64,000 bases of DNA from Methylosinus sp. C49. GTDB taxonomy: Bacteria > Pseudomonadota > Alphaproteobacteria > Rhizobiales > Beijerinckiaceae. Position 1 is the first letter of the stretch. Every line of letters starts with the position of its first letter. Made by a program: the position numbers and the translations under genes. Below the pieces are notes generated by a model. It did no database searches. It was given only the letters and a program-made list of their open reading frames with translations, and was not told where the DNA came from. Location: NCBI RefSeq assembly GCF_009936375.1, contig NZ_AP022332.1:2103501-2167500 (forward strand). The letters are read 5' to 3'. Positions 12,343 through 38,725 of this stretch are shown here, one piece after another.

Positions 12343-13023
12343 TTAAAACTCGACCTCGAGCTCCTCGATCTCTTCCTTCTCGAGCAGCGCGGCGGCGATC
12401 CATTCCTGCATCGCGGGCAATTCGAAAATGCGGTCGCAATAGGCCTGGCTGACGTCGTCCAGAGGCACGTCGTAAGTGCGAAAGCGCGTCGCCACCGGCG
12501 CGTACATGGCGTCGGCCATGGAGATCTGGCCGAAGAGATAAGGCCCGCCATAGATCTCGAGGCATTCGCGCCAAATCTGCGTGACGCGCGCGATGTCGCC
12601 TTGCGCCTTCGACCAGACCTTGAACTTGGGGAAATGGCCTTTCAGATTCATCGGCAGCGCCGAGCGCAGCGACGTGAAGCCCGAGTGAATCTCGCCGCAG
12701 ATGGAGCGGCAATGCGCGCGGCGCATGCGATCGCCCGGCAATAGTCCCGCCGTCGGCGCGATCTCGTTCAAGAACTCTCCGATCGCCAGAGTGTCCCAGA
12801 TTTTCGCGCCGTCATGCGTGAGGCATGGCACGAGGATGGAGGGCGACAGCAGGAGTATTTCCGCGCGCGCCGCGACATCGTCGGGGCTGACGACGATTTC
12901 CTCGAAAGCGACGCCGGAGAGCTTGGCCATCAGCCAGCCCCGCAAGGACCAAGACGAATAGTTTTTGCTGCTGATCGTGAGCGTCGTCGTCGCCGCCGTT
13001 TTCGCCGCCGTTTTCGCCGCCAT
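12343..13023 (-). CDS. Glutathione S-transferase family protein
   Basis: 226 aa. Thioredoxin-like N-terminal domain (TLTISSKNYSSWSLRGWLMA, with SSWS as probable glutathione-activating serine), the cis-Pro segment SPSILVPCLTHDG and glutamate of the G-site at DTLAIGEFLNE; then an all-helical C-terminal domain with FGQISMADAMYAPVATRF, the GST motif II. The start at 13023 has AAGGAGG upstream; a longer frame to 13098 would run through the sigma-54 promoter pair and is rejected. Substrate unknown. Divergent from phaZ. Confidence 0.88.
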   Translation of the reverse strand: MAAKTAAKTAATTTLTISSKNYSSWSLRGWLMAKLSGVAFEEIVVSPDDVAARAEILLLSPSILVPCLTHDGAKIWDTLAIGEFLNEIAPTAGLLPGDRMRRAHCRSICGEIHSGFTSLRSALPMNLKGHFPKFKVWSKAQGDIARVTQIWRECLEIYGGPYLFGQISMADAMYAPVATRFRTYDVPLDDVSQAYCDRIFELPAMQEWIAAALLEKEEIEELEVEF

Positions 13024-13060
13024 GAGAAACGCTTCCTCCTTTTCCTTTGGTGGACTGTGC

Positions 13061-13076
13061 AGCAAGCGCTGTGCCA
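13061..13076 (-). promoter_or_regulatory. Sigma-54 promoter for the GST gene
   Basis: Read on the minus strand: TGGCAC-AGCGC-TTGCT, a full match to the -24/-12 consensus TGGCAC-N5-TTGCW with the invariant GG and GC correctly spaced. The start point would fall near 13049, giving a leader of about 27 bases to the ATG at 13023. It is the left arm of an imperfect palindrome shared with the promoter at 13093-13108. Confidence 0.75.
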
Positions 13077-13092
13077 TGCTAGAGCCCGTCCA

Positions 13093-13108
13093 TGGCACGG
13101 GGCTTGCT
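13093..13108 (+). promoter_or_regulatory. Sigma-54 promoter for phaZ
   Basis: TGGCAC-GGGGC-TTGCT, again an exact match to the sigma-54 -24/-12 consensus. Transcription would begin near 13119, about 30 bases before the phaZ ATG at 13149. No enhancer-binding site could be recognised nearby. This implies control by RpoN and an NtrC-type activator, for example in response to nitrogen; the activator is not known. Confidence 0.78.
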
Positions 13109-13148
13109 CGACCTGCCCCATCGGTAACGGAAGGTTTCGCTCAGCCGC

Positions 13149-14366
13149 ATGATGTATGACGCATATCAGAGCTACGCCGACGTGAGCAATCGACTTCGTC
13201 TGGCGGCGGCGAGCGGCGAGCGACTGGCTCGCCTATGGAAATCGACGCCTTACGCCTCGCCTTTGCGGTGCTTCGAGGCCTATTGCGAGCTGGTCTCGCT
13301 GCTCGGCTTCACGCATGTGCGTCCCGATTATGGCGTCACGCAGATCACGACGCACAATGGCGCCGCCATCGACGTGATGGAGGAGCCGGTCTATTCGACG
13401 CCCTTCTGCCAGCTGCTGCGCTTCGTGCGCAAGGATGCGGAAAATCTCCCGCGCGTGCTGCTCGTCGCGCCAATGTCCGGGCATTTCGCGACTCTGCTGC
13501 GCGGCACGATCCGCACGCTCGCGCAGGACCACGACGTTTATGTCACCGACTGGATCAACACGCGCGACATACCGCTCTCGCAGGGCGTTTTCGGCATGGA
13601 CGAGTTCGTCCAGCATCTCATCGATTTTCTGCGCTTCCTCGGCCCGCCCGCCCATGTCGTCGCGGTCTGCCAGCCGACGGTCGCGGCGCTCTCCGCCGTC
13701 TCGATTATGGCCGAGGACAATGATCCCGCGCAGCCGGCGAGCCTGACGCTGATGGCCGGGCCGCTCGACGTCAGCGTGTCGCCCACTAAGGTCAATGAAT
13801 TCGCCGTCTCCAAGCCGATCGAATGGTTCCGCAGCAATGTGATCGGCACTGTGCCGCGCATGCTGCCGGGGGCGGGGCGGCGGGTCTATCCCGGCTTTCT
13901 GCAAATCTCCGGCTTCATGAGCATGAACGCCGAGCGCCACGCCAACGCTTTCATCGATCTCTTCCGCCACCGCGTCGAAGGCGATCATGAGAAGGCGGAC
14001 CGCATCCGCACCTTCTATGAGGAATATTTCGCGATCATGGACCTCGATGCGGATTTCTATCTGCAGACCATCGAGACCGTCTTCCATAAAAATGCCCTTT
14101 CCTCGGGCAGTCTGCTCTTTAGAGGGCGCAAGGTGACGCCGCGCGCGATCAAGAAGACCTTCCTGCTCACGGTGGAGGGCGAGAAGGACGATATTTGCGC
14201 CGTGGGCCAGACGCTCGCCGCTCAGGATATGTGCAGCGGCCTGCGTCCCTATATGAAGTCGCACCATTTGCAGGCCGGCGTCGGTCATTATGGCGTCTTC
14301 AACGGCAAGCGCTGGGACAATCAGATCTATCCCGTCGTACGAGACCATATCCAAAACAGCCTGTGA
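13149..14366 (+). CDS. phaZ: Intracellular polyhydroxybutyrate depolymerase
   Basis: 405 aa, the family's usual length. PhaZ1-type thiol depolymerase that mobilises native PHB granules in the cytoplasm. The alpha/beta-hydrolase nucleophile is a cysteine rather than serine, in VAVCQPTVAALS (Cys about residue 174), a hallmark of the Ralstonia PhaZ1 family; the catalytic His is in GVGHYGVFNGKRW near the end. Other signatures are YVTDWINTRDIPLSQG and FLQISGFMSMN. No signal peptide. It is preceded by a perfect sigma-54 promoter, linking PHB breakdown to RpoN control, and followed by a 7-bp GC hairpin (14372-14397). Confidence 0.95.
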   Translation: MMYDAYQSYADVSNRLRLAAASGERLARLWKSTPYASPLRCFEAYCELVSLLGFTHVRPDYGVTQITTHNGAAIDVMEEPVYSTPFCQLLRFVRKDAENLPRVLLVAPMSGHFATLLRGTIRTLAQDHDVYVTDWINTRDIPLSQGVFGMDEFVQHLIDFLRFLGPPAHVVAVCQPTVAALSAVSIMAEDNDPAQPASLTLMAGPLDVSVSPTKVNEFAVSKPIEWFRSNVIGTVPRMLPGAGRRVYPGFLQISGFMSMNAERHANAFIDLFRHRVEGDHEKADRIRTFYEEYFAIMDLDADFYLQTIETVFHKNALSSGSLLFRGRKVTPRAIKKTFLLTVEGEKDDICAVGQTLAAQDMCSGLRPYMKSHHLQAGVGHYGVFNGKRWDNQIYPVVRDHIQNSL

Positions 14367-35666: not shown

Positions 35667-37391
35667 ATGACGCCGAGCCTGCTGTTCACCCTCTCCATCT
35701 CGACGACCTTCCTGTCGAGCGCCGCGCTTTCGACGTTTCTCCTGGCGCGGGCGGGTGCGGCGCCGGGCGCGAAGCAGCTCGCGGCCTTCGTCGTGATCGT
35801 CGGGCTTTTCGCCCTCGGCTTGATCCTGCCCGAGCGCATCGGCGCGGTTGCCATGGCGCTGGCGCCGCTGGGCTCGGCGATAGCGGTCGATTTCGCGATC
35901 CGGCTGACGGGGCAGGGCGCGCGCACGCTTCCGATCGTCCACGCGCTCGGCGCCGGCGCGACCCTATTGCTTTTCATCTTCGGCGCCGGCGCCTTTTTCG
36001 AAGCACACGCTGGTCTGCGCGGTTTTCGCTATGAGGGCGTCGGCCTCGTCGGCGTGGCTGTCGCGATCGGCCTCGCGGCCTATGGCAATGGGCTGATGGC
36101 CTTCGCCCTGCGCCGCGCCGAGGGCAAGCGCCGACGCGAGATCGCCATTGTTCTCGTCTCCTCGCTCGTCGGCCTGTCGACGGTCGTTTCTTTCGCGCCG
36201 CCCTTGTTCGGCGTGTTGGTCGCGCCCTGGTCCATTCTCGCTCTGCCGATCTATCCGGCGCTGCTCGTCTACGGAATATTGCGCTATGAGCTGATGGCCG
36301 CCAATGTCTGGGCGCGTCGCGCCGCCGCCTATGCGCTCGTGCTGCTTCTCGCCGCCGCCGTGGCCGGATTGCTCGCCGCGGCGCCTTTGAGCTTCGTCGC
36401 TCCGTCGATGGATTTCGCGTCCCTTTGGCTCCTCGTCGTCACGGCCATGGCGCTGGCCTTTGCTTTCGGCGAGCCCATTCGCCGCGCGGCGGATCGGCTC
36501 GTCTACGCAGGCCCGGAGATTTTCGCCGAGACCATGGCGCAATGGCGCAGCGAGCTCGCCAGCGCGGACACGACCACTGAGGCGATCGAGATCGCGCGCG
36601 CGCAATTGCGCGCGGCGATGCGCCCGTCGGTCGAGGCGACTCTTTCCAACGAAGGGCCCGAGCCGGCGATACGCTGTGACAATACGGGCGACAAATGGGC
36701 CGCCAGGCTCACAGGTTTCGAGGATTCGCCGCCGGGCGCGCGCCGCCTCGCCATCGTCTACGCCGATGTTCTGACGCAGAGCCTCGACGATATCGATCGC
36801 CGAAGAAGCCGCGCCGAGAGCCAGCGGCTCGCCGAGCTCGGAATGCTCGCCTCGACGATTGCGCATGATCTGCGCAATCCGCTCAACATCGTGAATATGG
36901 CGGCCGCGGCCGCGCCGGCGGAGACGCGCGCCGAGATCATAGAGCAGACGCGGCGCATGAATCGTCTCGTCGCCGATTTGCTCGACTACGCCAAGCCCTG
37001 GAAGATCGAGCCGGCGGATATCGATTTCGCCGCGACATTCGGCGATATCGAGATCGACATCGCGAACGATGCGCATTTGCGCGCCGATCCGTTCCGCTTC
37101 GCTCAAGCGATAGACAATCTCATCGCCAATGCGCGCGCCGCCGGCGGCCGCGTCGCCATCTTCGTCGAGGCGACGCCCGAGGCGATATTCGTTAATGTCT
37201 GCGACGATGGTCCCGGCGTGCCGGAGGAAATCAAGGACCGCGTGTTTCAGCCCTTCGTCTCGCGCTCCGGCGAAGGCACGGGGCTCGGCCTCGCCATTGT
37301 CGCCAAGATCATGGCCGCGCATGGCGGCTCCGTGGCGCTCGGCGCGCGCGAGGGCTTCTCCACCTGCGTCACTCTGAGGTTTCCGGCGTGA
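35667..37391 (+). CDS. Membrane sensor histidine kinase
   Basis: 574 aa. About eight N-terminal membrane helices (residues 1-270), then a short cytoplasmic linker, HisKA dimerisation domain with the H-box LASTIAHDLRNPLN (His about residue 400), and HATPase with N-box FAQAIDNLIANARAA, G1 DDGPGVP and G2 GEGTGLGLAI. The polytopic N-terminus implies sensing of a membrane or lipid-soluble signal. Its TGA overlaps the GTG start of the sigma-54 response regulator, so the two form a cognate pair. Target genes unknown. Confidence 0.93.
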   Translation: MTPSLLFTLSISTTFLSSAALSTFLLARAGAAPGAKQLAAFVVIVGLFALGLILPERIGAVAMALAPLGSAIAVDFAIRLTGQGARTLPIVHALGAGATLLLFIFGAGAFFEAHAGLRGFRYEGVGLVGVAVAIGLAAYGNGLMAFALRRAEGKRRREIAIVLVSSLVGLSTVVSFAPPLFGVLVAPWSILALPIYPALLVYGILRYELMAANVWARRAAAYALVLLLAAAVAGLLAAAPLSFVAPSMDFASLWLLVVTAMALAFAFGEPIRRAADRLVYAGPEIFAETMAQWRSELASADTTTEAIEIARAQLRAAMRPSVEATLSNEGPEPAIRCDNTGDKWAARLTGFEDSPPGARRLAIVYADVLTQSLDDIDRRRSRAESQRLAELGMLASTIAHDLRNPLNIVNMAAAAAPAETRAEIIEQTRRMNRLVADLLDYAKPWKIEPADIDFAATFGDIEIDIANDAHLRADPFRFAQAIDNLIANARAAGGRVAIFVEATPEAIFVNVCDDGPGVPEEIKDRVFQPFVSRSGEGTGLGLAIVAKIMAAHGGSVALGAREGFSTCVTLRFPA

Positions 37392-38725
37392 GTGGCGAGA
37401 CCATTCTCATCGTCGATGACGAACTCGCTTTCGCGCGCGTCGCCGGCGCTTTTCTGACGCGCGAAGGTTATCATGTGGTGACGGCGAAGGACGCAGCTTC
37501 TGCGCGCGAAACCTTCGCGCAGGCGCGGCCCGATCTCGTGCTTCTCGATCTCGTCATGCCGCCCGAGCGCACGCCAGAGGCGGGCCTGTCGCTGCTGCCG
37601 GAGTTTTCGAGCGCTGTCACCGTCGTGCTCACGGCGCATAGCGAGCATGAGCTGGCGCTGCGCGCCGTCGCGCTCGGCGCATGGGATTTTCTCGCCAAGC
37701 CTGTGGAGCCGGAGCTGTTGCGCTTCTGCGCCCAGCGCGCGCTCGCCAAAGCGGCGCTGGAGCGCGAGAACGCGCGGCTGCGCGCGGAGACGGCGGGCGA
37801 TGGGCTGATCGGCAATGGTCCTTCCATGGCGCATGTGAAGGATATGATCCGCCGCATCGGCCCGGCCGAGCTTCCCGTAATGATCCTCGGCCCGACCGGC
37901 TCCGGCAAGGAGCTGGTCGCTCATGCGCTGCATAGAGCGAGCGCGCGTCACGGGCCTTTCGTTTCCATTCATTGTGGCGCGATTCCTGCCGAGCTGATCG
38001 AGAGCGAGCTGTTCGGCCATCTCAAAGGCGCCTTCACCGGCGCCCATGCCGATCGCCCCGGCCTCGTCGCGACGGCGCGTGGCGGCACGCTATTTCTCGA
38101 CGAGATCGGCGAGGCGCCGCTTCCCTGCCAAGTGAAGCTGCTGCGCTTCCTGCAAGAAGGTACCTATACGCCCGTCGGCGGACGCGAGGCGCGCCGCGCC
38201 GACGTGCGCATCGTCAGCGCGACGCATCGCGATCTCGAAGCGATGATCGCTTCCGGCGGCTTTCGCGAGGATCTCTATTACCGCCTGCGCGGCGTCATCA
38301 TTCGCTCGCCCGCGCTGGACGAGCGGCGCGAGGATTTGGGCCTCCTCGCCGCGCATTTTCTCGGCCGAGCGGCGAAGAAGCGCAAATTGGGTTTTTCCCA
38401 GGACGCTCTCGCTTGGCTCGTCGCACAATCCTGGCCCGGCAATGTTCGCGAGCTGAAAGCGACGATCGAATGCGCCGCCGCGCTCGCCGATCCGCGATCA
38501 TCGACGATTTCCGCCGAGGATTTGACTTTCGCGCGCGGCGGCGGAGTTCGACTCGCGGCGGAAGCTGTCGCGGAAACGCTTCCCGAAGCGCAGGAGAAAT
38601 TGGAGCGCCGCATGATCGGCGCCGCGCTCGCCGCCACCGAGCACAATCACAGCGCCGCCGCCCGCCGTCTCGGCGTTTCCCGCGTCGGGTTGTTGAAGAT
38701 GATGGCGAGGCTCGGGTTGCGATAA
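37388..38725 (+). CDS. Sigma-54-dependent response regulator, NtrC family
   Basis: 445 aa, GTG start overlapping the kinase stop. Receiver domain with acidic pair (LIVDDE) and phospho-acceptor Asp about residue 54 (LVLLDLVMP); AAA+ domain with Walker A GPTGSGKE (about 169), the sigma-54-contacting GAFTGA (about 214) and Walker [13 protein letters not shown]-terminal Fis-type HTH ([20 protein letters not shown]). It would activate RpoN promoters, such as those found at 13061-13108, though no direct link is shown. Confidence 0.95.

Follow-up and report, generated by a model that had tools for sequence, protein, structure and literature searches.

Head-to-head predicted sigma-54 promoters between a glutathione S-transferase gene and phaZ, conserved in Methylosinus and its relatives

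In Escherichia coli the hyc and hyp operons form a divergent sigma-54 promoter pair in which each unit has its own -24/-12 box and both depend on one activator. The locus described here, between a glutathione S-transferase (GST) gene and the polyhydroxybutyrate (PHB) depolymerase gene phaZ, resembles hyc/hyp in having two divergent units with a -24/-12 box each, but differs in that the -24 elements face each other across 0-33 bp, often abutting, and in that the genes served encode a PHB depolymerase and a GST. A second near parallel is the NtrC/RpoN nitrogen regulon of Methylosinus sporium 5, for which RpoN motifs were mapped upstream of nif and nitrate genes (PMC12403871) and which shares sigma factor, box type and genus with our locus. 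However, the accessible text of that report does not list the GST-phaZ pair as belonging to the regulon, and its main text mentions phaZ once, as a gene present. Control of phaZ genes has also been described for PhaR, a PHA-responsive repressor in Bradyrhizobium (PMC9049629), a system that like the GST-phaZ pair acts on phaZ but unlike it is not sigma-54 dependent. With respect to nitrogen, PHB production is raised by ntrB/ntrC mutation in Azospirillum brasilense, Herbaspirillum seropedicae and Paracoccus denitrificans (PMC7204398), an increase also given for the first two species in PMC9049629, and in Paraburkholderia phymatum three depolymerase genes are up under nitrogen starvation (PMC5748707). 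Neither sigma-54 promoters on phaZ nor the GST-phaZ pair are reported among the open-literature matches listed, a scope that most subscription papers fall outside, or in the accessible text of PMC12403871, PMC9049629, PMC5748707, PMC7204398 and PMC3162934.

The window, the stretch of 64,000 nucleotides of the Methylosinus sp. C49 genome that was analysed, contains the GST gene at 12343..13023 on the minus strand (226 aa; PF13409, PF13417 and PF13410) and phaZ, for an intracellular PHB depolymerase, at 13149..14366 on the plus strand (405 aa; PF06850, and TIGR01849 above cut-off), so that the identities proposed for both genes hold. The two genes are divergent and both boxes lie in their shared intergenic region. 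Translation starts were placed at the ATG at 13149 for phaZ and at the ATG at 13023 for GST, the GTG-started GST frame being merely the longest mechanical one. Reading of the sequence finds Shine-Dalgarno-like stretches before both genes, GGAGGA for GST (13034..13039, minus strand; kept as TCCTCC in L001-L008) and a second one for phaZ (13129-13134, plus strand). Upstream of these, pattern matching and conservation define the box TGGCACAGCGCTTGCT aimed at GST (13061..13076, minus strand) and the box TGGCACGGGGCTTGCT aimed at phaZ (13093..13108, plus strand), with an inter-box gap of 16 bp (13077..13092). In each of them GG and GC are exactly 10 bases apart within TGGCAYR-N4-TTGCW. The original prediction, made from the letters alone, had placed two perfect boxes at these very positions, 16 bases apart, and the sequence confirms them. 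It had also described an inverted repeat with 18-base arms around a 12-base centre, which exists (13061-13078 and 13091-13108), with 16 rather than 15 matching positions, and had put each box about 45 bases before a gene start, where the distances to the ATG are in fact 37 bases for GST and 40 bases for phaZ. By the usual geometry of such promoters, with RpoN-dependent initiation some 12 bases beyond the GC, transcription would be expected to start near 13050 on the minus strand for GST and near 13119 on the plus strand for phaZ, and the leaders would thus be some 27 and 30 bases long, respectively.

Could such boxes be chance matches to the consensus in a G+C-rich intergenic region? Sites with one mismatch are indeed plentiful in the genome, but at no higher frequency than the control, with 49 matches as compared to 66 for the reversed pattern, which is the noise level; single weaker boxes therefore mean little, and it is the paired, conserved arrangement that counts. 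Perfect TGGCACNNNNNTTGCW sites number two in the whole 4,704,546-base (4.70 Mb) genome, both at GST-phaZ, and the reversed pattern has none. Among relatives picked by protein, 56 of 80 named phaZ relatives could be scored, having a divergent GST close by and enough sequence, the other 24 having no divergent GST or lying at a contig edge. Both strict boxes are found in 45 of the 56 divergent loci, one box in 11 (GST box alone in seven, phaZ box alone in four) and none in 0, and in all 11 one-box loci the other strand still carries a weaker box with GG-N10-GC, such as the CGGTAC-N5-TTGC ahead of GST in three Methylocystaceae genomes. The presence of both promoters upstream of phaZ in relatives, suggested as a check at the outset, is thereby borne out. 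When these 160-base stretches were shuffled by dinucleotide, preserving base make-up but not relatedness as in the NtrC-dyad test below, both boxes appeared in 0 of 11,200 cases and any box in 24 of 11,200. Conservation, together with the gene-blind enrichment described next, refutes the chance explanation, to which we leave practically no probability, and supports the view that the boxes are real sigma-54 promoters, one per gene.

The gene-blind search used the head-to-head pattern GCAANNNNNRTGCCAN{0,30}TGGCAYNNNNNTTGC with the reversed pattern as control. The pattern occurs in 55 of 397 genomes of the family and the control in 0. GST-phaZ accounts for 45 of the 55 loci (L062-L116), 44 with the pattern between the two genes plus L100, where the contig breaks off at GST. 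The remaining ten comprise eight upstream of flhA, one between genes for a family-5 solute-binding protein and an OppC-type permease, and one between those for a Rieske oxygenase and a creatininase-family protein. In a phylum-wide sample 3 of 397 genomes match, namely the window's own, one by a porin gene and one by prkA; thus the arrangement is rare elsewhere and concentrated on the GST-phaZ pair. The original observation is borne out, and the case for it is better than was first made. As to flhA, which is typically sigma-54 controlled, the loci (L062, L111, L112 and L116 identified by Pfam, L063-L066 through 86-98% identity to L062) have head-to-head boxes facing a small ORF across a gap of 14-29 bp, and this ORF had no Pfam match in the two cases tested (L062, L111).

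A second way to account for the pair is a palindromic operator or RNA hairpin that merely resembles two sigma-54 boxes, as might be suspected from the 16 of 18 matching arm positions in the window. Across 64 distinct loci the inter-box gap is 0-1 bp in 19, 3-9 bp in 16 and 12-33 bp in 29, and thus varies from 0 to 33 bp where an operator should have fixed spacing. An operator should also have matched arms. Within the gap classes, however, the two arms resemble each other in their spacer letters no more than shuffled pairs do (p 0.20, 0.39 and 0.48), although a slight excess of likeness appears when all 64 loci are pooled (p 0.026). The 64 loci were chosen by a pattern that demands GG and GC, which makes these letters invariant by construction and leaves the gene-blind search and the protein-selected set as the free tests. 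Letters that no search demanded are nevertheless kept: the base after TGGCAY (position 7) is a purine in 64 of 64 loci on each strand and the base after TTGC is A or T in 63 of 64 and 60 of 64, as in the sigma-54 consensus, which has a purine at position 7 and A/T after TTGC. Loss of GG/GC with the palindrome kept, which would have spoken for an operator, is the opposite of what is seen, as the letters of the boxes persist while the gap changes in length and the spacers diverge. Since the gap varies and the spacers are not mirror-matched within gap classes, we infer two sigma-54 promoters, not one operator; the operator or hairpin was rejected on these grounds as very improbable.

Do the two promoters exclude each other? 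The original prediction had proposed an either/or switch. On this reading the two RpoN complexes would be mutually exclusive, and any one DNA molecule would express only one of the two genes at a given moment. From structural considerations, the gap of 0-1 bp in 19 of the 64 loci should bar joint binding. The footprint of the RpoN holoenzyme reaches to about -34, and for this reason two holoenzymes may just fit at 16 bp, as in the window; joint binding may likewise be possible in the other loci with gaps of 12-33 bp (29 of 64). Moreover, in the operon forms described below GST and phaZ are co-directional and probably made together. The drift of the gap argues against precise selection for an either/or switch, and because the gap wanders, exclusion looks tolerated rather than selected, with co-regulation the favoured reading; the switch seems distinctly unlikely. 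The natural gap series from 0 to 33 bp offers a ready means of asking how a pair of sigma-54 polymerases can be accommodated side by side. In the 64 loci the phaZ box ends 26-53 bases before the aligned ATG, a distance that speaks for the promoter reading.

How is the box pair distributed among the relatives? In the set L001-L023 both boxes are present in 11 loci, nine from the window's genus including the window itself (L001-L009) and two from two other genera of its family (L010, L011), and no boxes are found in the 12 loci with less similar phaZ (L012-L023), of which six belong to the same family and six to other families of the order. Within the window's genus, the 2.8 Mb genome G006 has rpoN, and neither this phaZ (only the 47% paralogue) nor head-to-head boxes were found in it. 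Some of the box-less pairs (L013, L016, L019, L020, L022) have in common, by eye, a CTCGCA...CACTA-TTTT-like motif and TTGCA-like half-sites, perhaps reflecting PhaR control, and PhaR may act on the box-less GST-phaZ pairs. On a 90-protein PhaZ tree, in which two paralogues serve as outgroup, the box label needs three changes (0 of 500 shuffles as low), and the box-less alphaproteobacterial pairs lie outside the box clade. Change counts alone cannot tell gain from loss; the simplest order is one gain, in the ancestor of the clade with Beijerinckiaceae-type alphaproteobacteria and betaproteobacteria, followed by two losses, namely box loss in the operon-form group and phaZ-box decay in a five-row group. 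By this tree the putative promoter pair is inherited together with the gene pair. As the alpha- and betaproteobacterial genes are closely akin, the tree suggests that the GST-phaZ module was transferred between the two classes. In 76 of 80 phaZ-relative loci a GST match is found close to phaZ; the two genes keep company whether divergent or in an operon, which points to a linked function.

The connection to RpoN was followed through its gene. The window genome has one rpoN match, and rpoN is present in 13 of 13 two-box genomes tested. In Polynucleobacter and its kin GST and phaZ run in one direction, and of 20 co-directional loci scanned 18 have no box within 300 bases of GST. The other two come from genomes labelled Ferrovum, in which rpoN is retained and a perfect box stands 233 bases ahead of the GST match. 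Five co-directional loci that were translated (L158, L160, L162, L193, L199) have the order GST, cupin, phaZ in a likely operon, with a small unknown gene before phaZ in L158, L160 and L162. In 12 box-less operon-form betaproteobacterial genomes rpoN was not found in ten; the copy of G830 is broken by stop codons, and that of G430 (L160) is open. Boxes are thus lost where rpoN is lost, mostly within one betaproteobacterial clade, with two exceptions: G430, which has an open rpoN and no boxes, and G836 (L204), where a strict GST box is kept and rpoN was not found in a genome of uncertain completeness. Gene absences in metagenome-assembled genomes (MAGs) may reflect incomplete assemblies. Fisher's test of box against rpoN in betaproteobacterial genomes gives p 9.6e-6, a value too small because the rows are related, from a table that leaves out all alphaproteobacteria and the five genomes whose sole strict box is the GST one (rpoN found in four of these five). 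Against a simple rule, rpoN is present in 12 of 12 box-less alphaproteobacteria with a divergent GST-phaZ pair, six of them from the window's own family.

Which activator might open these promoters? The window genome encodes nine true sigma-54 activators, and ten small Burkholderiales genomes with boxes encode two to four each. NtrC is present in all ten and is the sole activator type common to them; a short activator of about 366 aa, which we take to be FleQ-like, occurs in nine of the ten and others in fewer. Compared with eight of the window genome's nine activators, the small-genome NtrC matches L118 over its full length (41-43%), whereas the short activator matches L118 only over the ATPase and C-terminal part. 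NtrC was found in 31 of 31 two-box genomes searched and altogether in 43 of 43 genomes, including seven box-less operon forms; as all the box-less genomes searched have it too, finding NtrC says little by itself. In the GAFTGA motif of NtrC the threonine contacts sigma-54 (PMC7057263). This threonine is kept in 17 of 17 betaproteobacterial genomes with at least one box (the ten small Burkholderiales and seven more) and, as GSFTGA, in the NtrC of the window genome, the one alphaproteobacterium examined. It is changed to P, A or Q in seven of seven box-less betaproteobacterial genomes examined, out of the 12 operon-form ones. In Polynucleobacter and its kin the NtrC proteins (L245-L248, L256-L258) have GAFPGA, GAFQGA or GAFAGA, and rpoN was not found in five of these genomes, is broken in one and open in one, namely G430, with GAFPGA. 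NtrC of this group seems to have moved off sigma-54. The loss of the threonine together with the boxes fits NtrC as the activator, but would also follow from a general decay of the sigma-54 system.

NtrC enhancers follow a TGCACC-N-GGTGCA-like dyad. In 50 alphaproteobacterial loci no such dyad was found within 250 bp on either side, and half-sites numbered 0 on the GST side and 7 on the phaZ side as compared to 6.65 in shuffled sequence. On the GST side (leader) of 14 betaproteobacterial loci, dyads occur in four, the shuffled maximum also being four, and half-sites are enriched (12 versus 4.6, with 0 of 100 shuffles as high). These four are the GST leaders of L192, L191, L189 and L196, with TGCA-N-GGTGCA-type dyads resembling NtrC sites. 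In the alphaproteobacterial loci, columns 10-27 of the GST alignment have excess synonymous conservation (z 3.1 in the top-scoring segment of the alignment). This hints at most at an enhancer within the GST gene, since gene starts are often constrained. A comparison of the glnK upstream region with the GST-phaZ locus gave no convincing common words, and the glnK upstream box ends in GA, not GC. The nitrogen link of the original prediction is partly backed by NtrC in the box genomes with its GAFTGA threonine kept, and not by any NtrC enhancer found in the alphaproteobacterial loci.

The lack of an NtrC site in the alphaproteobacterial loci and the nine activators of the window genome leave room for another activator, e.g. 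an orphan response regulator or an AcoR-like protein, and for a signal other than nitrogen. An AcoR-like protein encoded in two of the ten small genomes matches L122 of the window genome at 32%. However, only NtrC is common to the ten small betaproteobacterial genomes and the window genome, and one box-less genome has rpoN yet an NtrC without the GAFTGA threonine. A search for a dedicated activator adjoining GST-phaZ, with eight of the genome's own activators (L117-L124; L125 left out), gave no match in the flanks of related loci. The window itself encodes a histidine kinase (35667-37391) followed by a sigma-54 response regulator (37388-38725), both on the plus strand. Close orthologues of the latter (at least 77% identity) occur in 5 of 45 genomes, i.e. 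in four of nine others of the genus and one from another genus of the family, and were not found in G002-G005, of the same genus and with boxes present; this pair (35667-38725) was rejected as the regulator. Control by an activator other than NtrC is possible on this evidence, albeit rather unlikely, and one activator shared by both promoters is plausible. Among the remaining activators, L120 (G000:C1:2269852) combines a sigma-54 activator domain and an SsuA-like domain for sulfonate binding in one protein of 664 aa.

On the strength of these comparisons we consider it quite probable that the locus is an RpoN/NtrC-controlled module for PHB mobilisation, with two functional sigma-54 promoters back to back serving GST and phaZ. 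The RpoN-holoenzyme would bind each -24/-12 box and stay closed until opened by an NtrC-type activator, most likely NtrC itself, and under nitrogen scarcity PHB breakdown would be switched on together with GST. The comparisons themselves show that the boxes exist, that they are conserved and that they went missing along with rpoN in one betaproteobacterial group; transcription from both promoters, the role of NtrC as activator and that of nitrogen as signal are what we infer. Nitrogen shortage is the condition under which PHB is made, and the reason for switching on its breakdown under RpoN/NtrC is a practical question for bioplastic work with methanotrophs. The box pair provides a concrete conserved target, could help to explain the over-accumulation of PHB in ntrB/ntrC mutants of other bacteria, and makes the control of phaZ testable by a single rpoN or ntrC deletion; its conservation suggests that a general nitrogen-starvation switch governs use of the carbon store in a methane-eating bacterium. 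It could further be imagined, tentatively and with doubt prevailing, that the two genes form a mobile module which mobilises PHB as part of the nitrogen-starvation response and which moved between Alpha- and Betaproteobacteria with its promoter pair, that the abutting mirror-image promoters act as one bidirectional start element, and that a single activator hexamer nearby opens either direction, coupling breakdown of the carbon store, at a fixed ratio, to a step that depends on glutathione. The Methylosinus genome has two phaZ genes. The paralogue (G000:C1:513011-514123, 48% identical) has no sigma-54-like box upstream of its matched stretch, and therefore the window copy would be the nitrogen-responsive one of the two. 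Its nearest named relative is the phaZ of M. sporium DSM 17706, which is 95% identical.
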